Positions 26,401 through 62,260 of a DNA stretch of 64,000 nucleotides are shown here, piece by piece; positions within the stretch are counted from its first letter, which is position 1, and the number at the start of each line of letters is the position of its first letter. A program made the translations under genes and the position numbers. The stretch is from Onthophagus taurus (Eukaryota; Arthropoda; Insecta; Coleoptera; Scarabaeidae), in the NCBI RefSeq assembly GCF_036711975.1, contig NC_091971.1:18917501-18981500 (forward strand). Reading direction: 5' to 3'. Below the pieces are notes generated by a model, which had not been told where the DNA came from, made no database searches, and saw nothing but the letters and a program-made list of their open reading frames with translations.

Positions 26401-29400
26401 TTGTAGGAAAAGATAAAACCTTCAAGTGGAAAAAAAAATTTCCAACTTCAAGAAGAACAAGAGCATTTGAATGCTCTTGTTGCATCTCCGCATTTGAATA
26501 CTTGAATACTAAATGAATAGATAGATCTAATAATAACTTCATTCTAAAGCGAGATTCGCAGAATGCCACTGTAGCTGAAGTAATACCATTGATTGATATT
26601 TTAATAATGAGTGGAATGTTGAGAGTTTCCCATCTTAGTTTTCTGGATATGTGGAATTCCGACGGCACTGGTATAGACTTTGTTCGCTTCTGCATGAGGT
26701 CCAAGAGGTTCTTGTTTTTAATGAGATGCATTAGATTTGATTCTCTGACCAGCAGACCAGATCGTGTAAAAACCGACAAGATGGTACATCTAAGAGATAT
26801 ATTCGTTGAACAATGCAAGAACAACTATTATTACAAGACCACCAGGTTCAACTATTCACCAAGTTGGGATAAAAACAAATTCTTTTCTTTGACGTTTCTA
26901 ATTTTTGACGTTCTACTGTAATTATATATATTTTTTAGAGAAACTAAATGTTTATTATCCAACTGGATAATAAACATTTAAATACTGGATGTATTGATTG
27001 AAAAGTTGATAATTTGAAAAAAAAATTACATAATTAGTAGTGGTGGAACGGATATCCGGTATCCGGCCTCCGATACCGGATAGTTACCAAATAAACCTAT
27101 TACTTAGTACTCCACCATTCACAGGAATTAGTATCTCTTTTAGGTGTTGGACACTGTAGATAATAATCAAGTTCAACCCCCACAGGACTTTTTTGATTGA
27201 ATACAACTTTATTTATATCAGGTTTGTCACTAAGAACCTCATTGTAACAATCCCAATCTGGGTTTCTTCTCTTCGCTTGTGATTCATCACCACATTCATT
27301 ACTAACAGAACTGTTGCTGTTATAACTTTCGATTATTAATTAAAGTATCCTCTTTTTAATGCAAAAAGCCGTTTTGAGAAAGCACTTTCAGTTCTTGAGA
27401 AATAAATTTTTGAAATGATCGACAATTTATTCGAATTTTTTAATTTTCGCTGATTACGTTTTAAAAATTCGTATAAAATCCAGTTCTTGGAATATGAGTA
27501 TGAAAATCTCCCAAAGTGTCAATAAGAGGGTCCTCTTTCCAATGAATCAACCCGTTTTGAAAAATAGCTTTGAGTTTTTGAGAAAACAATGTTTGAAGTT
27601 TTGATAAATCTTCGATTTTGCAATTTTCATCAATAACTTTCAAAATTCGCTATAAAATTCATTTCTTGAAGAATCCTTCTGGAAATGTAACCAACTATTA
27701 ACTAAAATATCCTCTTTTTAATCCAACAAGCCGTTTTGAAAAATTGCTTTTAGTTTTTGAGAAATAAATTTTTGAAATTATCGACAATTTTTTCGAATCT
27801 TGCAATTTTCGCTTATTAAGTTTTAAAAATTCGTATAAAATCCAGTTCTTGGAATATGAGATTGAAAATTTTCCAAAGTGTTAATAAGAGTGTCCTTTTT
27901 CCAATGAACCAACACGATTTGAAAAATAAGTTTTAGTTTTTGAGATAACAATATTTGAAGTTTTGAAAAATTTTCAATGTTGTAATTTTCATCGATAACA
28001 CAGGCCGACAAATTTTTAAACCAAAGACTAGACTATACCTTCCAAATAATTTTCGATACTCTGAATCCGAATCTGACGTCAGAATTGCTTCATCGCCTAA
28101 GATTTTCAAGATATCTTACCTAAAATATACGAAAAACACGATTTTTCAGCACATTCAAGGCTGAATTTACATCAAAAGATAATTTTTCTCCACAGAAGTC
28201 ATTATGCCATTTAAAAGTATTTCTCTGCCCCCTTAAAATCTATGTGGCTGAAGTTAGATTCATATTCGAATCTGTACCAGATTCAGATTCATAAAATTAC
28301 AGTTGACCAGACAAGTATTGAACATATCAATTAAAAAATAGTTTTCTGAAATTACAGAAGTTGTAGCAATCTGCGACTACCCTGGATAATTCGAATAGAC
28401 CCTCTAGTATGTTCCCTGTCTATCCTCACCCTCAGATTTGCCGTAGGGGCCGAGCGGTTCACCGTTTTCAATAGCATACTTAGATATTATTTTCTCAATA
28501 ACTAGAGACTGCAGCACCCTGGGACTAGTTCAGATTATTGCATTAGGTCCTCTGGTATCTTTCTAGCCCACCAGCACCCCCAGATTTGCCGTAGGGGCCA
28601 AGGGGTGAATTTTTTAATATTATTCGTTTTCAATATCAAATGTAAACATTATTTTCTCAATAATTAGAGACTGCAGCACCCTGATACTAGTCTAGATTAT
28701 TGCATTAGGTCCTCTGGTATCTTACTAGCCCACCAGCACTCCCAGATTTGCCGTAGGGGCCGAGGGGCGAATTTTTTAATATTACTCGTTTTCAATATCA
28801 AATGTAAACATTATTTTCTCAATAATTAGAGACTGCAGCACCCTGATACTAGTCTAGATTATTGCATTAGGTCCTCTGGTATCTTACTAGCCCACCAGCA
28901 CCCCCAGATTTGCCGTAGGGGCCGAGGGGTGAATTTTTTAATATTACTCGTTTTCAATATCAAATGTAAACATTATTTTCTCAATAATTAGAGACTGCAG
29001 CACCCTGATACTAGTCTAGATTATTGCATTAGGTCCTCTGGTATCTTACTAGCCCACCAGCACCCCCAGATTTGCCGTAGGGGCCGAGGGGTGAATTTTT
29101 TAATATTACTCGTTTTCAATATCAAATGTAAACATTATTTTCTCAATAATTAGAGACTGCAGCACACTGATACTAGTCTAGATTATTGCATTAGGTCCTC
29201 TGGTATCTTACTAGCCCACCAGCACCCCCAGATTTGCCGTAGGGGCCGAGGGGTGAATTTTTTAATATTACTCGTTTTCAATATCAAATGTAAACATTAT
29301 TTTCTCAATAATTAGAGACTGCAGCACCCTGATACTAGTCTAGATTATTGTATTAGGTCCTCTGGTATCCTTCTAGCCCATCAGCACCCCCAGATTTGCC

Positions 29401-32400
29401 GTAGGGGCCGAGGGGTGAATTTTTTAATATTACTCGTTTTCAATATCAAATTTAAACTTTATTTTCTCAATAACTAGAGACTGCAGCACCCTAGAACTAG
29501 TCTAGATTATTATATTTAAAATTGATGTAATATTTAGTTTGATATTATAATTTCGTATTGCTTTTACTTCTATATAATAACATTGAAATAAAAGAAAGAT
29601 CTACTAATGCAAATGAAACTATAATACTAAATAGTAACAGCCCCATTCTAAAACGTTCGTCGCCAACTATATCGCAGCTACTTGTTTCTAACGTTTCATT
29701 ATTTAGTAATATTCATGATAGATTAGATGAAGAACATTTATCAGAACCCTCTACTGATAATGAAACCTTTATAAGTAAGGCACAGCTACCGACGTTACAG
29801 GTAGAGCCGTGTCAATATAAAAAACATATAATATAAAAAACAAATACAAAAAACAATATAAAAAATTAATTTAAATGCTTTAATGTGTCTAAAAATTTTG
29901 AAGTGTCGTTCAAGTTTCATTAATAAAGAAGTAAAAGCCATATGAAAATTATACTTTCAAATCAAACTAAATATTGAATAAGTTTTGAATATAATAATCT
30001 AGACCAGTCCCAGGGGTGTAGTCTTTAGTTCTTCTAGTCTAGTCTAGAAAATAATTTTTAATTTTGCTATTGAAAACCAGGAATTTTAAAAAATTCACCC
30101 TTCGGCTCCTACGGCAAATCTGGGGGTGCGAGTGGACTAGAAGGATACTAGAGGACATAATGCAATAATATAGACTAGTCCCAGGGTGCTGCAGTTTCTA
30201 GTTATTGAGAAAATAATTTTTACATTTGATACTGAAAACGAGGAATATTGAAAAATTCACCCTTCGGCCTCTACGGCAAATTTGGGGGTGCTGATGGGCT
30301 ACAAGGATACCAGAGGACCTAATGCAATAATCTAGACTAGTCCCAGGGTGCTGCAGTTTCTAGTTATTGAGAAAATAATTTTTACATTTGATATTGAAAA
30401 CGAGGAATATTGAAAAATTCACCCTTCGGCCCCTACGGCAAATTTGGGGGTGCTGATGGGCTAGAAGGATACCAGAGGACCTAATGCAATAATCTAGACT
30501 AGTATCACGGTGCTGCAGTCTCTAATTATTGAGAAAATAATGTTTAAATTTGATATTGAAAACGAGGAATATTGAAAAATTGAAAAATTCACCCTTCGGC
30601 TCCTACGGCAAATCTGGGGGTGCTGATGGGCTAGAAGGATACCAGAGGACCTAATACAATTATCTAGACTAGTCCCAGGGTGCTGCAGTCTCTAGTAATT
30701 GAGAAAATAATTTTTAACTTTGCTATTGAAAACGAGGAATATTGAAAAATTCACCCTTCAGCCCCTACGGCAAATCTGGGGGTGCTGATGGGCTACAAGG
30801 ATACCAGAGGACCTAATACAATTATCTAGACTAGTCCCAGGGTGCTGAAGTCTCTAGTAATTGAGAAAATAATTTTTAACTTTGCTATTGAAAACGAGTA
30901 ATATTGAAAAATTTACCCTTCGGTCCCTACGGCAAATCTGGGGGTGCTGGTATGCTAGAAAGATACCAGAGGACCTAATGCAATAATCTAGACTAGTATT
31001 AGGGTGCTGCAGTCTCTAATTATTGAGAAAATAATGTTTACATTTGATATTGAAAACGAGTAATATTAAAAAATTCACCCCTCGGCCCCTAGGGCAAATC
31101 TGGGGGTGCTGGTGGGCTAGAAAGATACCAGAGGACCTAATGCAATAATCTAGACTAGTCCCAGGGTGCTGCAGTTTCTAGTTATTGAGAAAATAATTTT
31201 TACATTTGATATTAAAAACGAGGAATATTGAAAAATTCACCCTTCGGCCCCTACGGCAAATCTGGGGTTGCTGGTGTACTAGAAGGATACCAGAGGAACT
31301 AATGCAATAATCTAGACTATTCCCAGGGTGCTGCAGTCTCTAGTTATTGAGAAAATAATGTTTAAATTTGCTATTGAAAACAAGGAATATTAAAAAATTC
31401 ACCCCTCAGCCCCTACGGCAAATCTGGGGTTGCTGGTATGCTAGAAGGGTACCAGAGGAACTAATGCAATAATCTAGACTATTCCCAGGGTGCTGCAGTC
31501 TCTAGTTATTGAGAAAATAATGTTTACATTTGATATTGAAAACGAGTAATATTAAAAAATTCACCCCTCGGCCATTACGGCAAATCTGGGGGTGCCGGTG
31601 GGCTAGAAAGATACCAGAGGACCTAATGCAATAATCTAGACTAGTATCAGGGTGCTGCAGTCTCTAGTTATTGAGAAAATAATATCTAAGTATGCTATTG
31701 AAAACGAGGAACCCCTCGGCCCCTACGGCAAATCTGAGGGTGAGGGTAGACAGGGAACATACTAGAGGGTCTATTCGAATTATCCAGGGTAGTCGCAGAT
31801 TGCTACAACTTCTGTAGTTTCAGAAAACGATTTTTCAATTGATATGTTCAATACTTGTCTGGTCAACTGTAATTTTATGAATCTGAATCTGGTACAGATT
31901 CGAATATGAATCTAACTTCAGCCACATTTAAAATCTTATATTATTCATTTAAATATTTTTCTTGATCTCTGAGAAATTGTCCCCTAAAACTAAGAAATTC
32001 ATCATGTTTGAAATAACATCTTTTTATTTTCCCGTTTTATTTACAAATTTTAAAATGGTGAAAATGTTAAAATGTGTTCAGGTAAAGTGACACTTGCACT
32101 CAAGTGATTTCGCTAAAATTCAATATATGGTATTTTTTTATCATTTATTAGATGTATACGAAAGTATATGTTGGGCTATACATATCAAAAGTGTAAGTTT
32201 ATATGAAACATTTGAATGTCTTCAGGTAAAGTGCCATTTCCGGTTAGTGGATTTGGTCCAAAAGTTGTTTAAGAGCTTTCGATTTTGGTTTAATAGCTAT
32301 ATACCAAATTTCATTACGATAACTGATTGCGTTTTTAAGTTATCGTGTTTACACACATTATTACATACGTATCTACGTACATAAATACGCACAGGCATTT

Positions 32401-35400
32401 TCTGGGAATGGTCAATATCAGGACTCAGGGGACCTCAAAACGTGTATATCCATCAAAATGTCGAGGTCGAATCTTTGCACGATTACAATACTTTGTCTCA
32501 TATACTTCGTATAAAGTGCGAGAAAGTAAAAATTAATTTACAATATTTTTCTTTGATATACTTTATAACAATGAAACTTCATAACTTTCACTTATTCTCG
32601 AATATTTTTAAATTAATTTGTTTTTTATTGTATTTAATTTTGTATTTTTAAAACTTCTTTTCTATTTATAACAGTTTAGATGTTATTTTAGTTTCTTATG
32701 ATAACGATCGCGCATCAATTCAAACGATCACTTAACACTCTTACGCTTATATTGAGCAGCGTTATCGTTTCTTTTCAAAGACCAGCAGTAGTCAGCCATC
32801 ATTCTTTCATCCCATCTACCTTGATAGTGTCGCTTTTTTTCTTTCAAATCCTGATGGAATCGTTCACCTATTTCTTCGCTGAAGGCTCCTACATTTTCCT
32901 GAAAGTAATGTAAATGGGAAAATAGGAAATGTAGCTTCAAACTCATTAAACAGCCTAATTTTTTAAAGTTTAATAACATTGTCGATACAATGTTTTTATG
33001 TTGTGGGTCCCGATGATTGCCCAGGAAATTTTGTACAACTTCTTAACTTAACCAAGCATTTTTTGCGTTATCTGTTATTGTTCCTATAAAATCGTCATCT
33101 TTCATTAAGTTTCTTATATCAGGCCCCACGAAAATACCTTCCTTAACTTTAGCATTACTTAAATTTTGAAATGCAGACTTAAGGTATTTAAAACAGTTTC
33201 CATCAGTATTTAAGGCTTTTACGAATTGTTTGATCAAGCCTAATTTGATATGGAGTGGAGGTAACAAAATACGCTTTGTGTCAACAAGACTCTTGTAAAC
33301 AACATTGTTAGAACCAACTTTCCAATCAAATCTTTCAGGCCACTTTTTTTTAATCCAATGTTGTTCTCGGGCACGACTGTCCCAAATGCAGAGAAAGCAA
33401 GGATTTTTTGTAAACCAACCAAAATATTGATCATTTTAAAGTAGTCACCACATATAAACCAGTTGTGGATGTTGTAATTGATTTTTTCGAGTACAAATTG
33501 AAGGTCTTCGTATGATTCTTTTCGCCTGGTGGAATGACCAATAGGGATTGCTGCGTATTTATTGCCGTTATGGAGCAACACTGCTTTAAGGCGTTCTTTA
33601 GAAGAATCTATAAAGAGAAGCCAGTCATCGGACTTATACACATCTACTTGATATGTGTTGATAAGTCCTTCTATATCATTACAATAAACTAAGGAATTTT
33701 CACTAGAAAAATATTTCAGAAATTCCTCATCTCTTCTTCTGTACGCTGTAATTTTTGTTCCGGGTAACAACATGTTCCTCTCTTTAAGTCTTGAAGCCAA
33801 TAATTCAGCTGAATCTTTAGAAAGAATAAGATCGCGAATAAGATCACCTAATGAATCTTGATCAAAAAGTTCAGGGTCTTTGGCACTAACAGAATCCTCA
33901 TAATCACTGTCAATAGAACTCATTTCTTCCAAACAACATTCATATTTATTAGGTGGTACTTTGTCTAATCTCGCTATTTTTCCTTTCTTGGCTGGTGTTA
34001 CGCTTTGTACGTTAGAATATAATATGTTTCCTTTATTTTTTTTATTACAACCTGTTATATCACAGGCACAGAAGTAACAGTCTTCATTGTGATCCTTAGG
34101 CTCGTACCACATGGTTGGTGTAATGACAACTTCCTTTTTCATATAGTTCCAATTAATCAGAGTTAATCTACAAGTAGTACAAATAGATGTAGGTACCCAC
34201 GGTTTAACTAAATTTCTCATAGGTATGTTGTAACATTCCACAAATTTTTTTAATCCATTCATTAATGGTTCTGCGATAAGGACATGTTTCGAAGTTTCCG
34301 CAAAAAAGTCACTAAAGAATAAGCTTTCCGCCTCATATTTTTTTATATTAATATTCCATCGTTTTAAAATTTTTTTGTAGAAAATCCAATATGGTTGTGA
34401 TTTTCATCTTATAAAACGCTATAGAGCTTAAATAAAAATATAATATGTAAATTGTCTCTTTTTGAATGAATAAATCTCGTAAGCAATCATTTTATTTTTG
34501 TAAATACTGCTATAGTTTTCCCATTAAAACTACAACTTTGCTAACAAACCAAATAAATTCATAAAAATTAACTGGATTTTGAATCTCCAGTTTCTCAATT
34601 GAATACCTCCTGGTTAAAAGATAAATGCATGGTTAAAAATTTCAACTTTAAAGCTTCATTTTTAGATATTTGATCACATTTTCGCATATTTGTTTTACTG
34701 TGCGTCAACATCGCTAACTTTATGTAACTCAACATTAGTTTATCAAGGACAGAGCAAACCGATGTACTTATTAATTTCAACAGATGATATCTCGAAGAAG
34801 AAAAAAGATATTTAAGTAATTGAAAAAGAGTTTTAAAGGGGAAGGGTAATAATTTCAAAACTTCTAAAAAAAATTGTTTTTTTTAACTCCCTCATGTGAA
34901 CTATAACCACAAATACGACCAGAAACCGCATTTTTAACATATTTTGGTTAAGATATTTTGAAAACCTTACGTGATGAAGCATTTTTGAGGTTAAATTTGG
35001 ATTTAGAACGTGAAAAACCTTCGGGATAGTATAGTCTAGTTGTTGGTTTAGAAAACATTTAAATTTTTGTCGGCCTGTGTAATTTTCAAAATTCGCTATA
35101 AAATTCATTTCTTGAAAGATCCTTGTGGAAATATCACCAATTATTAATTAAAGTATCCTCTTTTTAAGGCAACAAGCCATTTTGAAAAATCACTTTTAGT
35201 TCTTAAGAAATACATTTTTGAAATAATCGACAATTTTTTCGAATTTTACAATTTTCGCCGATTAAGTTTTAAAAATTCGTTAAAATCCATTTCTTGGAAT
35301 ATGAGTTTGAAAATTTTCCAAAGTGTTAATATGAGTGTCCTCTTTCCAATGAACCAACACGTTTTGAAAAATAACTTTTAATTTTTGAGAAAACATTATT

Positions 35401-36442
35401 TGAAGTTTTGATAAAATTTTCCATGTTACAATTTTCATTGATAACTTTCAAAATTTGCTATAAAATTCATTTCTTGAAGGATCCTTGTGAAAATATCACC
35501 AATTATTAATTAAAGTTTTGAAAAATCACATCCAGTTCTTGAGAAATAAATTTTTGAAACGAACGTCAATTTTTTCTAATTTTGTAGTTTCGCCGATTAA
35601 GTTTTAAAAATTCGTATAAAATGCAGTTCTTGGAATGTGAGTATGAAAATTTCCCAAAGTGTTAATAGAAGCGCCTTCTTTCCAATGAACCAACCCGTTT
35701 TGAAAAATAGTTTTTAGTTTTTGAGAAAACAATATTTGAAGTTTTGATAACTTTCAAAATTCGCTATAGAATTCATTTCTTAAAGAATCCTTGTGGAAAT
35801 ATCGCCAATTATTAATTAAAGTATCCTCTTTTTAGAGTTGCTTCGTTAGTTAAATCAGCATCAAAAAAGTTTTTGTATCTTGGATCCAAATATCACTTCA
35901 GAAATGCACCAGAAATTATAACCATAATGGCCGGATGAAGGGAATGCCGAATATCCGGTATCCGGCTTTTCCCAAAATCATTATTCCTTCCATCACTAAT
36001 GTACATATTTATTGAAAAGTTGATAATTTGAAAAAATTTTACTACTTAATGTTGATTATATTGTCCATAATTAGTATTATTTTGAGACAGCTTTCTAATT
36101 ATAATTAAATTAAACTTCTTACCTTGCTGCTAATGACATAGCCATAGGAAAAGTACCCATCGAGCTCCCACCCAATAAAAAATCACTACTAGTTTCCTGT
36201 TTTCCACCGAAAAACCCATAAAATACTCCGATTCCACACGAAATAACCAACATAGCGGTTAACACTAAGTAATCAACCCAAGAGAACGAATTTGTAATAA
36301 CTTCATGGTTATCTTCGCATACAACATTTTTGCTATCTTCTTTATCAGCTTCCTGACAATTTCCTTTTTGTATCAATGAAATAAAGATGAGAGTGACGAT
36401 AAAAATGATAAAGCTACATTTTTCTTTGGTTGAAACGGTCAT
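23436..36442 (-). CDS. SLC5-family sodium:solute symporter A (SMVT/SMCT-like)
   Basis: Plasma-membrane sodium-coupled transporter resembling the multivitamin (SLC5A6) and monocarboxylate (SLC5A8/12) subgroup; the substrate cannot be read from sequence. Seven coding exons with consistent phases: 36442-36123, 25438-25161, 25109-24887, 24826-24686, 24632-24414, 24275-24005 and 23954-23436, giving 656 residues. The N-terminus is hydrophobic with a possible signal anchor. Family landmarks are [17 protein letters not shown] (TM1), [67 protein letters not shown] and [14 protein letters not shown]. Near TM8 the Na2-site region reads SLGTVASALN, where paralogue B has [10 protein letters not shown]. 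The C-terminal tail is long and charged. Intron 1 is 10.7 kb and hosts nested transposons. Symporter B is a paralogue on the same strand. Confidence 0.93.
25680..26105 (+). mobile_element. Truncated copy of the hAT-derived, satellite-bearing element
   Basis: It begins 'actaatgatggaacg' and continues with 'ccggatatctgg', then sequence nearly identical to the 5' part of the element at 60.6 kb ('ataagatagctgataagat', 'aagatacaaaatgaac', 'ggatactttaattaataatt'). It ends within the first internal repeat unit, where piggyBac-like DNA starts. Confidence 0.65.
26220..26921 (+). pseudogene. piggyBac-type transposase fragment
   Basis: The plus strand around 26580-26850 encodes [20 protein letters not shown], then [20 protein letters not shown] and MRCIRFD, then RPDRVKTDK. 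This matches the 'GLLYLAGV…LW..DGTGI…FL.RCLRFDD' segment at the start of the piggyBac catalytic domain. An acidic N-terminal region is suggested upstream (26270-26380). It covers a different part of the protein than the fragment at 246-578. Stops and a missing C-terminus show that it is dead. Confidence 0.8.
26947..26980. repeat. Perfect 15-bp-arm hairpin
   Basis: 'aaatgtttattatcc' is followed after four bases by its exact reverse complement. It sits between the piggyBac fragment and the hAT-derived element and could be a transposon-end remnant. Confidence 0.6.
28242..31927. mobile_element. Foldback element with tandem-repeat arms and 9-bp target duplication
   Basis: The left end 'atgtggctgaagttagattc' is the inverse of the right end, and 'ttaaaatct' stands directly outside both ends (28233-28241 and 31928-31936), a perfect 9-bp target duplication. 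The unique outer part of each arm is about 150 bp. Inward, each arm is an array of ~162-bp units ('ggtcctctggtatc', 'cagatttgccgtaggggcc', 'gactgcagcaccct'): about seven units on the left (28390-29525) and ten on the right (30000-31760), in opposite orientation. The 475-bp loop holds one small open frame. Nine-base duplications are typical of Mutator-like and foldback elements. Confidence 0.88.
29558..29836 (+). CDS. Small open frame in the foldback loop, unknown
   Basis: A 92-codon frame lies exactly in the unique loop between the repeat arms. The product is polar, rich in Ser, Asn, Thr and Glu, with no motif I recognise and no clear signal peptide or membrane segment. It could be the remains of a gene captured by the element or a chance frame in AT-rich DNA. 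No ortholog or expression is shown. Confidence 0.25.
   Translation: MLLLLYNNIEIKERSTNANETIILNSNSPILKRSSPTISQLLVSNVSLFSNIHDRLDEEHLSEPSTDNETFISKAQLPTLQVEPCQYKKHII
32080..32531 (+). repeat. LINE-like 3' tail / dispersed repeat
   Basis: The segment ends 'agtgcgagaaagtaaaaa', with earlier blocks 'tccatcaaaatgtcgaggtc' and 'tttgcacgattacaatactt'. This layout is familiar from 3' ends of beetle RTE-like LINEs. Its 5' part resembles the first 135 bases of the window. No protein motif is present, so the class is inferred. Confidence 0.4.
32700..34262 (-). pseudogene. Transposase-like gene of an unclassified family (copy 1)
   Basis: The first 280 or so codons are open from the Met at 34262. They show a Cys cluster likely to bind zinc (CTTC at residues 28-31, CYFCAC at 62-67), an acidic linker, [11 protein letters not shown], then [19 protein letters not shown] and [11 protein letters not shown]. 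The last two look like the first strands of an RNase-H fold (D in FIDSS and GDY). A frameshift near 33430 leads into [16 protein letters not shown], then [19 protein letters not shown]. After a stop near 33041 the frame continues with MSLKLHF, GERFHQD and [10 protein letters not shown] know this motif set from unnamed proteins in many arthropod genomes, but no superfamily name. Terminal inverted repeats around it support transposase function. One frameshift and one stop make this copy non-functional. Confidence 0.7.
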
Positions 36443-38300: not shown

Positions 38301-41300
38301 TTCTCATGATCCAATTTTTAATAATGTCTAAGGTACAGGTGTTAAAAGTAAAAACTTTATTTTCGTTTTTCTTAAATAACTTCGCTTATTCCAGGAATAT
38401 TAACGTGAAAATTCTATGATAGTGATCAATGGATTAAAACTGTTTATTGGATATGTTTTATAGGCTAATTTTAAATAATTTTTGTACAAAACATTTTATT
38501 CCATCAGTTATAATTATTGAGTTATAGAAGATATTTGTTAAAATACTTGAAAATTCTTAATTTTTGGGGCTGAGGTTGGTATAACTGATCGGTGGATTCA
38601 AATTGCTTATTGGATATATTATATAGGCTAATTTTTAACCTTTTTTGTATGAAACGTTTTATTCCATCAGTTATAATTATTGAGTTATAGAAGAAACTTG
38701 TTGAAATACTTGAAAATTCCTAATTGTTGGGAGTTGAGATTGGTACAACTGATTGGTGGATGAAAACTGTTTATTGGATATGTTTTATAGGCTAATTCTA
38801 AATAATTTTTGTACAAAACGTTTTATTCCATCAGTTATAATTATTGAGTTATAGAAGATATTTGTTAAAATACTTGAAAATTCTTAATTTTTGGGGCTGA
38901 GGTTGGTATAACTGATCGGTGGATTCAAATTGCTTATTGGATATATTATATAGGCTAATTTTAAACCTTTTTTGTATGAAACGTTTTATTCCATCAGTTA
39001 TAATTATTGAGTTATAGAAGAAACTTGTTGAAATACTTGAAAATTCCTAATTGTTGGGGGTTGCGATTGGTACAACTGATCGGTGGATGAAAACTGTTTA
39101 TTGGATATGTTTTATAGGCTAATTCTAAATAATTTTTGTACAAAACATTTTATTCCATCAGTTATAATTATTGAGTTATAGAAGATATTTGTTGAAATAC
39201 TTGAAAATTCTTAATTTTTGGGGTTGAGGTTGGTATAACTGATAGGTGGATTAAAATTGCTTGCTGGATATATTATATAGGCTAATTCTAAACCTTTTCT
39301 GTATGAAACGTTTTATTCCATAAGTGATAGTTATTGAGTTATAGCAAACTGTTGAAATAATTAAAAATTTGTAATTGTTGGAGTTGCGGTTTTTACTACT
39401 GATCGATGGATGAAAACTGTTTATTGGATATGTTTTGTAGGCTAATTCTAAATAATTTTGTACAAAACGTTTTATTCCATCAGTTATAATTATTGAGTTA
39501 TGGAAGATATTTGTTGAAATACTTAAAAATTCTTAATTTTTGGGGTTGAGGTTGGTATAACTGATAGGTGGATTAAAATTGCTTGCTGGATATATTATAT
39601 AGGCTAATTCTAAACCTTTTCTGTATGAAACGTTTTATTCCATAAGTGATAGTTATTGAGTTATAGCAAACTGTTGAAATAATTAAAAATTTGTAATTTT
39701 TGGGTTTAAGGTTGGTATTACTAATCGATGGATTAAAACTGTCTGTTGGATATGGTTTTTAGGCTAATTCTAAATCATTTTTGTATGAAACGTTTTATTT
39801 CATCAGTTATAGTTATTGAGTTATAGAAGAAATTGTTGAAATAATTGAAAATTTTTAATTGTTGGAGTAGCGGTTGGTACTACTGATCGATGGATGAAAA
39901 CTGTTTATTGGATATGTTTTATAGGCTAATTCTAAATAATTTTTGTACAAAACGTTTTATTCCATCAGTTATAATTATTGAGTTATAGAAGATATTTGTT
40001 AAAATACTTGAAAATTTTTAATTTTTGGGGTTGAGGTTGGTATAACTGATCAATTTATTAAAATTGCTTGTTGGATATATTATATAGACTAATTCTAAAC
40101 CTTTTTTGTATGAAACGTTTTATTCCATAAGTGATAGTTATAGAGTATTAGAAAAAATTGATGAAATAATTAAAAATTTGTAATTTTTGGGTTTAGGGTT
40201 GATATTACTAATCGATGAATTAAAACTGTTTGTTGGATATGGTTTTTAGGCTAATTCTAAATCATTTTTGTATGAAACGTTTTATTCCATCAGTTATAAT
40301 TATTGAGTTATCGAAGAAACTTGTTGAAATACTTGAAAATTCCTAATTGTTGGGGTTGAGATTGGTACAAGTAATCGGTGGATGAAAACTGTTTATTGGA
40401 CATGTTTTATAGGCTAATTCGAAATAATTTTTGTACAAAACGTTTTATTCCATCAGTTATAATTATTGAGTTATAGAAGATATTTGTTGAAATACTTGAA
40501 AATTCTTAATTTTTGGGGTTGAGGTTGGTAACTAATAGGTGGATTAAAATTTCTTGCTGTATATATTATATAGGCTAATTCTAAACCTTTTTTGTATGAA
40601 ACGTTTTATTCCATAAGTGATAGATTGAGTTTTAGAAAACATTGTTGAAATAATTAAAAATTTGTAATTTTTGGGTTTAGGGTTGGTGTTACTAATCGAT
40701 GGATTAAAACTGTCTGTTGGATATGGTTTTTAGGCTAATTCTAAATTATTTTTGTATGAAACGTTTTATTCCATCAGTTATAGTTATTGAGTTATAGAAG
40801 AAATGGTTGAAATACTTGAAAATTCTTAATTGTTGGGGTTGAGGTTGGTACTACTAATCGATGGATTAAAACTGTTTATTGGATATGTTTTATAGGCTAA
40901 TTCTAAATAATTTTTGTACAAAACGTTTTATTCCATGAGTTATAATTATTGAGTTATAGAAGATATTTGTTGAAATACTTGAAAATTCTTAATTTTTGGG
41001 GTTGAGGTTGGTATAACTGATCGGTGGATTAAAATTGTTTGTTGGATATATTATATAGGCTAATTCTAAACCTTTTTTGTATGAAACGTTTTATTCCATA
41101 AGTGATGGTTATTGAGTTATAGAAGAAACTTGTTGAAATACTTGAAAATTCTTCGTTGTTGAGGTTGAAATTGGTACAACTGATCGGTGGATTACAATTG
41201 CTTGTTGGATATGTTTTATAGGATAATTTTGTATAATTTTTGTATGAAACGTTTTATTCCATAAGTGATAGTTATTGAGTTATAGAAAACATTGTGGAAA

Positions 41301-42600
41301 TAATTAAAAATTTGTAATTTTTGGGTTTAGGGTTGGCATTACTAATCGATGGATTAAAACTGTTTGTTCGATATGGTTTTTAGGCGAATTCTAAATCATT
41401 TTTGTATGAAACGTTTTATTCCATTAGTTATAATTATTGAGTTATAGAAGAAACTTGTTGAAATACTTGAAAATTTTTAATTTTTGGGGTTGAGGTTGGT
41501 ATAACTGATCAATTTATTAAAATTGCTTGTTGGATATATTATATAGACTAATTGTAAACCTTTTTTGTATGAAACGTTTTATTCCATAAGTGATAGTTAT
41601 AGAGTTATAGAAAAAATTGATGAAATAATTAAAAATTTTTAATTTTTGAGTTTAGGGTTGATATTACTAATCGATGAATTAAAACTGTTTGTTGGATATA
41701 GTTTTTAGGCTAATTCTAAATCATTTTTGTATGAAACGTTTTATTCCATCAGTTATAATTATTGAGTTATCGAAGAAACTTGTTTAAATACTTGAAAATT
41801 CCTAATTGTTGGGGTTGAGATTGGTACAAGTAATCGGTGGATGAAAACTGTTTATTGGACATGTTTTATAGGCTAATTCTAAATAATTTTTGTACAAAAC
41901 ATTTTATTCCATCAGTTATAATTATTGAGTTATAGAAGATATTTGTTGAAATACTTGAAAATTCTTAATTTTTGGGGTTGAGGTTGGTATAACTGATAGG
42001 TGGATTAAAATTGCTTGCTGGATATATTATATAGGCTAATTCTAAACCTTTTTTGTATGAAACGTTTTATTCCATAAGTGATAGTTATTGAGTTATAGCA
42101 AACTGTTGAAATAATTAAAAATTTGTAATTTTTGGGTTTAGGATTGGTATTACTAATCGATGGATTAAAACTGTTTGTTCGATTGGTTTTTAGGCTAATT
42201 TTAAATAATTTTTGTATGAAACGTTTTATTCCATCAGTTATAGTTATTGAGTTATAGAAGAAATTATTGAAATAATTGAAAATTTTTAATTGTTGGAGTT
42301 GCGGTTGGTACTACTGATCGATGGATGAAAACTGTTTATTGGATATGTTTTATAGGCTAATTCTAAATAATTTTTGTACAAAACATTTCATTCCATCAGT
42401 TATAATTATTGAGTTATAGAAGATATTTGTTGAAATACTTGAAAATTCTTAATTTTTGGGGTTGAGGTTGGTATAACTGATCGGTGGATTAAAATTGCTT
42501 GCTGGATTATTAGGTATATAGGGTAATTCTAAACGTTTTTTGTATGAAACGTTTTATTCCATAAGTGATAGTTATTGAGTTATAGAAAACATTGTTGAAT
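38300..42600 (+). repeat. 163-bp satellite array with dimeric higher-order structure
   Basis: About 26 tandem monomers, each marked by 'cgttttattccatcagttat' and 'ttattgagttatagaa'. Marker spacing is 163, 164, 163, 164, 163 over the first copies. Two monomer types alternate. One has 'gtacaaaacg', 'gatatttgttgaaat' and 'ggatatattatataggct'; the other has 'gtatgaaacg', 'gaaacttgttgaaat' and 'ggatatgttttataggct'. This gives a ~327-bp higher-order unit. Blocks of units in the second half (near 40.0-40.6 and 41.45-42.1 kb) look duplicated as longer segments. There is no coding potential. It lies between the two symporter genes. Confidence 0.9.
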
Positions 42601-42984: not shown

Positions 42985-44150
42985 TGTCATAGTTGTGGAA
43001 CGGATATACGGCAACTATCCGGTATCCGGACTATGCGGCCATTTTTTAACCAAATATCCGGCTTTGGCAGGATATAAAAACCTATTACTTAATACTCCAC
43101 CATTCACAGGAATTAGTATCTCTTTTAGGTTTTGGACACTGCAGATAATAATCAAGTTCAACCCCAATAGGACTCTCTTCATTGAATACAACCTTCTTTA
43201 TATCAGATTTGTCATTAGCAACCTCATTGTAACAATCCCAATACGATATATAAAATCTCTTGTTGCAGTTTCGTCTAGTTTTCTTCTCTTGGCTTGTAAT
43301 TCATCATCACATTCGTTACTAACAGCACTGTCGCTGTTATAACTTTCGATTATTAATTAAAGTATCCTCTTTTTAATGCAAAAAGCCGTTTTGAAAAATC
43401 ACTTTCAGTTCTTGAGAAATCAATTTTTGAAATAATCGACAATATTTTCGAATTTTGCAATTTTTGCCGATTAAGTTTTAAAAATTCGTATAAAATCCAT
43501 TTCTTGGAATATGAGTTTGAAAATTTTCCAAAGTGTTAATAAAAGTGTCCTCTTGCCAATGAACCAACAGATTTTGAAAAATTACTTTTAGTTTTTGAGA
43601 AAACCATATTTGAAGTTTTGATAAAATTTTCGATGTTGCAATTTTCATCGATAACTTGCAAAATTCGCTATAAAATTCATTTGTTGAAGGATCCTTGCGG
43701 AAATATCACCAATTATTAATTATAGTATCCTCTTTCTAATGCAACAAGCCGTTTTAAAAAATCGCTTTTAGTTTTTGAGAAATAAATTTTTGAAACGAAC
43801 GACAATTTTTTCGAATTTTGTAATTTTCGCCGATTAAGTTTTAAAAATCCGTATAAAATCCAGTTCTTGGAATATGAGTATGAAAATCTCCCAACGTGTT
43901 AATAAAAGTGTCCTCTTTCCAATGAACCAACCCGTTTTGAAAAATAACTTTTAGTTTTTGAGAAAACAATATTTGAAGTTTTGATTAAATTTTCGATGTT
44001 GCAATTTTCATCGATAACTTTCAAAATTCGCTATAAAATTCATTTCTTGTAGAATCCTTGTGGAAATATCACCAATTATTAATTATATTATCCTCTTTTT
44101 AATGCAAAAAGCCGTTTTGACAAATCACTTTTAGTTCTTGAGAAATAAAG
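42985..44150 (-). mobile_element. hAT-derived, satellite-bearing element, third copy
   Basis: It starts 'agttgtggaacggatata', followed by 'atccggtatccgg', then a block nearly identical to 27.1-27.35 kb ('aatactccaccattcacagg', encoding CEWWS on the minus strand). About two and a half copies of the ~363-bp internal repeat follow. The expected right end is missing: the last repeat breaks off at an 'agagagagag' run near 44150. Confidence 0.7.
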
Positions 44151-60236: not shown

Positions 60237-62260
60237 TTAACTTGCTTCTACTTTAATTTTATTTCCATGTGAACCCAGCAAAGACGTGTCTTCTACAATA
60301 TCAAAAAATGCATCGTAAATCTCTTTAAGTTGAAATCTAACGGGCCTGATCGCATTTATTCTACTTTCCCATCTCGTAGAACATACAGATTTTAATATTA
60401 AATTAGCCAGATGTTTGACAAGAATAGACCATTTATAAATGGATGCAGGAAAAAAGATTACCATTTCTATATTTGATTCTGCAGTATCATTTAAAACAAC
60501 ATTAATAGAGTGACAGGAGCAAGGAACAAATAACGCTCTCTGATTTATACTTGAAACTCTATATTTATAAATGTCTAGAAAACTAGTGATGGATCGGATA
60601 GCGATTTTGCGAAAAGCCGGATATCAGATATTCGGCATCCCCTTCGGCTAGATATCCGGCATATCTATCCGGCCATTATTGTTATAATTTCTCGTGCATT
60701 TCTGAAGTGATACCCTATATTCTCACATTATTGTGGTATTTGAATAAAAATTAAATTAATAAGAAAGCTGATAAGATATGTCAACTTATTTGGATCTAAG
60801 ATACAAAATGAACTTTTTTGATACTGATTTAACGAACGAAGCAACTCTAAAAAGAGGATACTTTAATTAATAATTGGTGATATTTCCACAAGGATCCTTC
60901 AAGAAATCAATTTTATAGCGAAGTTTGAAAGTTATTGATGAAAATAGCAACATCGAAAATTTTATCAAAACTTCAAATATTGTATTCTCAAAAACTAAAA
61001 GCTATTTTTCAAAACGGGTTGGTTCATTTTAAATAAGACATTTTTATTAACATTTTGGGAAATGTTCATACTCATATTCCAAGAAATCGATTTTATACGA
61101 ATTTTCAAAACTTTTTCGGCGAAAATTACAAAATTCGAAAAAATGTCGTTCGTTTCAAAAATTTATTTCTCAAGAACTGAAAGTGATTTTTCAAAACGGC
61201 TTTTTGCATTAAAAGGAGGATACTATAATTAATAATTGGTGATATTTCCACAAAGATCCTTCAAGAAATAAATTTTATAGCGAATTTTGAAAGTTATCGA
61301 TGAAAATTGCAATATCGAAAATTTTATCAAAACTTCAAATATTGTTTTCTCAGAAACTAAAAGCTATATTTCAAAACGGTCTGGTTCATTGAAAAGAAGA
61401 CACTTTTGTTAACACTTTAGGAGATTTTCATGCTCATATTCCAAGAACTGGATTTTATACGAATTTTTAAAACTTAATCGACAAGAATTGCAAAATTCGA
61501 AAAAATTGTCGATCATTTCAAAAATTTATTTCTCAAGAACTGAAAGTGATTTTTCAAAACGGCTTTTTGCATTAAAAAGAGGATACTTTAATTAATAATC
61601 GAAAGTGATAACAGTGACAGTTCTGTTAGTAATGAATGTGATGATGAATTACAAGCGAAGAGAAGAAAACTAGACGAAACTGCAACAAGAGATTTTACAT
61701 ATCGTATTGGGATTGTTACAATGAGGTTGCTAATGACAAACCTGATATAAATAAAGTTGTATTCAATGAAAAAAGTCCTATTGGGGTTGAACTTGATTAT
61801 TATCTGCAGTGTATAAAACCTAAAAGAGATACTAATTCCTGTGAATGGTGGAGTATTAAGTAATAGGTTTTTAATATCCTGCCAAAGCCGGCAACTATCC
61901 GGCCGGATAGTTGCCGGATATCCGTTCCACCACTAGTCTAAACCTAGTACTTTTATTATGTCTAAAAATATAGATGCCAGACCGACTCCTGTAGTGTCAG
62001 TTACTTCAATAAAATCAATAAAATGTTCTTCCACCAAATACGTATTCTTTGATTCGGTGTTAACAAATCGAACTATTAATGTAGTTGTTCTTTGTGGCTG
62101 ATATCGGGACTTGTATCCCTAATTATAGAAAAAAAATCGGCTTTGTTTGCCATTTCTATAATTTTCTTTTGTCATTTGTACCAATAAACATACTAGTTCA
62201 TTTTGTATGTCTTTACTAATATAATGAACCTGTGTCTTTTTAGACGTGGTAAATTGCATC
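60237..62260 (-). mobile_element. hAT-type transposase (ZMYM1-like) relic, interrupted
   Basis: The minus strand right part (about 62260-61945) encodes VHYISKDIQNELVCLL, TTTLIVRFVNTESKN and EEHFIDFIEVTDTTGVGL. The left part (about 60560-60237) encodes ALFVPCSCHSINVVLND, YKWSILVKHLANLILK and CSTRWESRINAIRPVRFQLK. These motifs occur in this order in ZMYM1/TTF-type hAT proteins ('FVPCSAHSLNL … S.TRWE.R'). The two parts are separated by the element at 60588-61935. Stops are present. Confidence 0.75.
60588..61935 (+). mobile_element. hAT-derived element with internal satellite, complete copy
   Basis: It begins 'tagtgatggatcgg' and ends '…atccgttccaccacta', with several 'atccggc' repeats at both ends. 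A short 5' part ([11 protein letters not shown]-type codons and KMNFF) and a 3' part encoding SDSSVSNECDDE and a damaged NSCEWWS remain from a hAT transposase. Between them lie about two copies of a 363-bp unit (starts near 60848, 61213 and 61575), each made of two related ~180-bp halves. It is inserted in the ZMYM1-like hAT relic. Confidence 0.75.

Follow-up and report, generated by a model that had tools for sequence, protein, structure and literature searches.

A probable Chapaev3 DNA transposon with a WDSR/GERFHQD transposase in Onthophagus taurus

Chapaev3 transposons are distantly related to the enzyme behind antibody gene rearrangement. CAC is found at the ends of Transib elements and of RSS, and the duplications of Transib and RAG are 5 bp long. 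PIF/Harbinger duplications are TWA, and the Harbinger-type transposase is not known to have C(2)C/H(4)H. In the passages of PMC4079192 devoted to Chapaev, the hallmarks given are 3-4-bp duplications and CAC/GTG termini; for Chapaev3 they report a TWA duplication between A and T in all elements those authors examined, confirmed by empty sites, and a silkworm transposase of 556 aa with C(2)C, LH and H(4)H. Chapaev3 carries a Chapa zinc domain according to a section of PMC4411706. Parts of PMC12730594 assign the motif order D, D, C(2)C, LH, H(4)H, E to CMC transposases, CAC ends and 3-bp duplications to fungal EnSpm, and a duplication of 3 bp to PIF/Harbinger. Repbase has put Chapaev inside EnSpm, as stated in a passage of PMC4455052.

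We analysed a stretch of 64,000 nucleotides of the Onthophagus taurus genome (contig NC_091971.1; hereafter, the window) and found an element that is very probably a defective copy of a cut-and-paste DNA transposon of the Chapaev3 superfamily (CMC group). Membership was judged against published Chapaev3 hallmarks rather than by protein alignment, and the case for it is strong but not closed. The Chapaev3 elements Garfield, Merrow and Conan, as portrayed in excerpts of PMC4079192, are like the element described here in their CAC...GTG ends, their A-TWA-T sites, their transposases of ~556-562 aa and their DDE/C(2)C/LH/H(4)H motifs. Chapaev3 likewise occurs in animal hosts including insects, with deletion derivatives, and most of its members have one-exon uninterrupted frames as found here, although Garfield and Merrow differ in this respect and are shorter (~2.3-2.45 kb) than the window family, which is mostly ~3.1-3.5 kb long (same excerpts). 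The initial annotation had put forward an undescribed family, a view to be given up on a match to a named superfamily with known ends. Since the ends, duplication, A/T flanks, length and motifs are those published for Chapaev3, such a match exists at the superfamily level, and the proposal fails there. The element is most likely not of a new kind, and may at most represent an unnamed family within Chapaev3. It is a real transposon, rightly spotted and bounded from the letters, but from a named group as far as tested.

The 14-mer CACAGGCCGACAAA forms both ends of the element in inverted orientation (27999-28012, plus strand; 35066-35079, minus strand), and with up to 2 mismatches permitted these were its only sites in the window (0.17 expected). 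Similarity to the opposite ends of three other copies (L010, L015 and L024; 70.7-72.6%) extended over ~146 bp on the left and ~157 bp on the right, and the two ends of the window copy aligned with each other over a similar length. The outer flanks read ATAA and TAAT, which places the TAA duplication at 27996-27998 and 35080-35082. The ends and duplication first proposed were thus recovered exactly, with the 14-bp inverted ends at 27999 and 35079 and TAA on either side. The insertion site lies within a repeat, of which the window has 7 other copies (88-92% identical to the joined flanks, weaker matches left uncounted); these cross the site unbroken with a single TAA and represent the empty site. 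This target repeat of ~363 bp occurs as scattered pieces in both orientations, at 27336-27959, 35080-35800, 43349-44149 and 60880-61342.

Table 1 Features of the transposon copy and of the element nested in it, in window coordinates.
Feature	Position	Strand	Remarks
Left target-site duplication TAA	27996..27998		A before; read from the flanks and from uninterrupted copies of the flanking repeat
Chapaev3-like DNA transposon copy	27999..35079	- (coding strand)	7081 bp, nested element included
Left terminal inverted repeat	27999..28144	+	First 14 bp exact, ~146 bp similar to opposite end
Left duplication of nested element	28233..28241		9 bp, TTAAAATCT
Nested foldback-like element	28242..31927		3686 bp, ends ATGTGGCTGAAG / CTTCAGCCACAT
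Right duplication of nested element	31928..31936		9 bp, TTAAAATCT
C-terminal part of the transposase gene	32728..33042	-	H(4)H and GERFHQD (third acidic residue)
Middle part of the transposase gene	33043..33435	-	C(2)C onward; closes in in-frame stop 33043-33045
N-terminal and first catalytic part of the transposase gene	33408..34403	-	Later cysteine pairs, D1, D2; then frameshift
D2 (CGD) codon	33444-33446	-	Counted from aligned reading
D1 (FIDSS) codon	33606-33608	-	Counted from aligned reading
Right terminal inverted repeat	34923..35079	-	~157 bp, imperfect past 14 bp
Right target-site duplication TAA	35080..35082		T after; read from the flanks

To profile further copies with the same 14-bp ends, a check suggested by the initial annotation, we searched the 290.8-Mb genome and obtained 61 exact matches to CACAGGCCGACAAA, against 1 for the reversed control. 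Forty of the 61 make 20 inward pairs with a spacing of <12 kb, and the gene is enclosed in 19 of these; the one pair lacking it, L025 (1449 bp), probably arose by deletion. In the gene search, 150 places out of 680 candidates were scored, and 40 of the scored places were close hits (identity of at least 69%): 19 lie within a pair, 13 have one exact, properly oriented end at most 7 kb away, and 8 have no exact 14-mer nearby. Flanks were read on both sides for 19 of the 20 pairs, the L027 pair being left out on account of its left flank. The 3-bp flanks were identical in 17 pairs (12 TAA, 5 TTA) and did not match in L012 and L016; shuffling the right flanks gave a mean of 10.4 matches and reached 17 in 47 of 100,000 shuffles. 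The base preceding the duplication was A in 19/19 pairs, and that following it was T in 18/19. A PIF/Harbinger element would account for a 3-bp duplication of TAA or TTA, but has a negligible chance of being the source here, given the CAC...GTG ends, the C(2)C-LH-H(4)H stretch between D2 and E, and a Pfam search in which a Harbinger-type match was not found.

Besides the close copies, the gene search returned many at ~50-60% identity. This one genome harbours three subfamilies, all with CAC...GTG terminal inverted repeats; two include near-identical copies and have frames free of interruption. The ends of the second and third were located from homology boundaries, not from the CAC pattern. The second subfamily (L029, L030, L032) has ends CACTGGACAACA and a length of 2.17-2.19 kb, and its flanks were identical in the 3/3 copies read, being TAA in L030, TTA in L032 and, departing from TWA, TAG in L029. 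A 13-mer of these ends matched the genome 20 times, its reversed control 4 times; six inward pairs, spaced by 2.06-2.19 kb, each cover a scored gene hit. In the third subfamily, L034 and L035 start with CACAGGGGAACA and have TTA/TTA flanks, so that 4 of the 5 duplications outside the window family are TWA; the right end of L033 is lost. The copies L033-L035 are mutually 98.9-99.3% identical across ~2.55 kb and have uninterrupted frames of 564-565 aa, which suggests that this subfamily probably moved recently. Element ends were looked for in L031 and L036 and not found; a copy of the gene from yet another subfamily lies within a large palindrome in L036 (780-5400).

Stop to stop, the uninterrupted frames measure 558, 564, 565, 565 and 587 aa, in line with the Chapaev3 transposase length; the 558-aa frame (L032) has the first cysteine, not a methionine, as its opening residue. 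dN/dS was computed for seven pairs. Four of them gave the following values (L012-L015, dS 0.069, dN 0.031; L012-L024, 0.066 and 0.030; L034-L033, 0.022 and 0.010; L034-L035, 0.022 and 0.008). Constraint was not evident in L030-L032 (dS 0.015, dN 0.014) or in L015-L024 (dS 0.004, dN 0.015), and for L034-L030 dS was saturated, with a dN of 0.50.

Of the 14 rows in the family alignment, several are near-identical copies; each residue is covered by 10 to 12 rows. The motifs follow the order D (FIDSS), D (CGD), C(2)C, LH, H(4)H, E (GERFHQD). The acidic triad proposed at the outset held in every covering row: the D of FIDSS in 10/10, the D of CGD in 12/12 and the E of GER in 11/11. In L034 numbering, D265 (FIDSS), D319 (CVD/CGD), C338/C341, D344 (WDSR), H495/H500 and E517 (GERFHQD) are invariant where covered, and H387 of LH is replaced by Y in 2/12 rows. 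These residues are consistent with a DDE transposase of the Chapaev3 type. The N-terminus has seven cysteines, of which C63, C66, C99 and C102 are found in 10/10 rows and C11, C19 and C22 in 9/10, the exception being L015 of the window's own subfamily.

Gene-end linkage in 19/20 pairs, 3-bp duplications and conserved motifs together uphold the claimed transposase identity. A host gene or unrelated repeat caught between transposon ends might also be found broken, as in the window copy, or apart from any exact 14-mer, as in 8 of the 40 close hits; against such a capture, 19/20 end pairs enclose the gene, and the two diverged subfamilies, at 48-49% protein identity and with other end sequences, have the same gene within CAC ends, leaving it a very small probability.

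In the window, the minus strand codes for every one of the protein motifs first noticed, split over three open pieces between 34403 and 32728, so the claim of a gene inside the element stands as to its motifs; the gene itself is broken, and its first three N-terminal cysteines are unreadable here. The first open frame departs from the family sequence at 33408 and a second one picks up within 33435. As read from the sequence, the copy is dead, with a frameshift near 33408-33435, the stop at 33043-33045 and a damaged N-terminus. The frame also breaks right before EVVQNFLGN in L015, L016 and L018, and that of L010 stops at the same NAWLS. These common breaks point to descent from an already broken copy, and the copies in question probably share that ancestor and were moved in trans.

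From the observed ends, duplication, empty site, multicopy gene-end linkage and motif conservation, we propose that an intact transposase would bind the CAC...GTG terminal repeats, probably via its N-terminal cysteine cluster. A putative DDE (RNase-H-like) site, made up of the D of FIDSS, the D of CGD and the E of GERFHQD, would cut the ends; insertion of the excised element at ATWAT, with a stagger of 3 bp, would then produce the TWA duplication. Structural zinc is held by C(2)C and H(4)H in RAG1 and Transib, and by analogy these motifs may hold it here. Broken copies would be moved by the same protein in trans.

Transib and RAG1 show the same motif order as this family, from the two D residues through C(2)C, LH and H(4)H to the final E, and likewise have an acidic stretch in front of that E. 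The same genome contains transposase fragments, L037-L046, that we take to be Transib-type because of weak RAG1-profile matches and the motifs typical of that group; one of them, L046, is open over 645 aa within the stretch examined. The D1-D2 spacing was 104 residues in L046 vs 54 here, the distance from D2 to the first C was 16 vs 19 (D319-C338), and that from the last H to E was 21 vs 17 (H500-E517). When the family profile (Neff 2.0, built from 14 sequences) was compared by hhalign with 9 Transib-type pieces, the match lacked significance (Prob 0.2, score 19.0), and the controls outscored it, 60 column-permuted profiles reaching 27.2 and the reversed one 22.7; the best local alignment covered the H(4)H-to-E segment. 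It is therefore motif order and published work, and not a score, that tie the family to RAG1/Transib. Transib membership was rejected, the duplications being of 3 bp, not 5 bp, and the hhalign match falling within the permuted controls. Of the 31 places that a genome search with the RAG1 family produced (best E 0.00137), none passed the cut-off and none belonged to the 150 scored gene places.

Pfam searches with the transposase returned nothing above the curated cut-off; the best match was zf-AD (E 0.0076), and this weak match, to the N-terminus, recurred most in the Pfam and PDB searches. RAG1 and Transib were not found in the PDB sequence searches, scans of viral and prokaryote contigs revealed no relative, and a full-text search for GERFHQD gave no mention in the papers covered. 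An AlphaFold2 model of the 98-aa first catalytic segment, made from a single sequence, had a pLDDT of 47, too poor to use, with a strand order and helix compatible with an RNase-H core. EnSpm/CACTA elements have CAC ends and 3-bp duplications in common with this family, as described for fungal EnSpm in the cited excerpts, but the A-TWA-T preference is described there for Chapaev3, and a CACTA-type Pfam match was not found here.

These search results would also suit a separate unnamed CMCT (EnSpm-Mirage-Chapaev-Transib) lineage beside Chapaev3, with the same TWA duplication and CAC ends: the Pfam and PDB searches gave no sequence-level match to a named family, no tie was established between the N-terminal cysteine cluster and the Chapa domain, and one copy (L029) has a TAG duplication. 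We consider such a lineage unlikely, since the testable Chapaev3 hallmarks, including the A-TWA-T context and the protein length, were all found. If WDSR/GERFHQD proteins nevertheless sat beside Chapaev3, the choice of TWA would predate Chapaev3, a similarly unlikely prospect. Under the Chapaev3 assignment, a protein family for which Pfam gave no match in this analysis, and known at first only as unnamed arthropod proteins, gains a likely name and mechanism; for transposon biology, one family is added to a known group and no new question is raised.

Of the 7081 bp of the window copy, 3686 bp belong to the nested foldback-like element and not to the transposon. The arms of the nested element consist of ~162-bp tandem units in opposite orientation, forming long inverted arms. 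L015 holds its site singly, as TGAAAATCT, with one base different, and the size of the 9-bp duplication is reminiscent of Mutator-like/foldback elements. Outside the transposon, the window has a transposase fragment at 26517-26921 matching Pfam DDE_Tnp_1_7 (E 2.2e-10), which we take to be of piggyBac type. A tandem array at 38423-42599, with units of 163, 325 and 488 bp (25.7 copies of the 163-bp unit), sits where the GC skew is positive.
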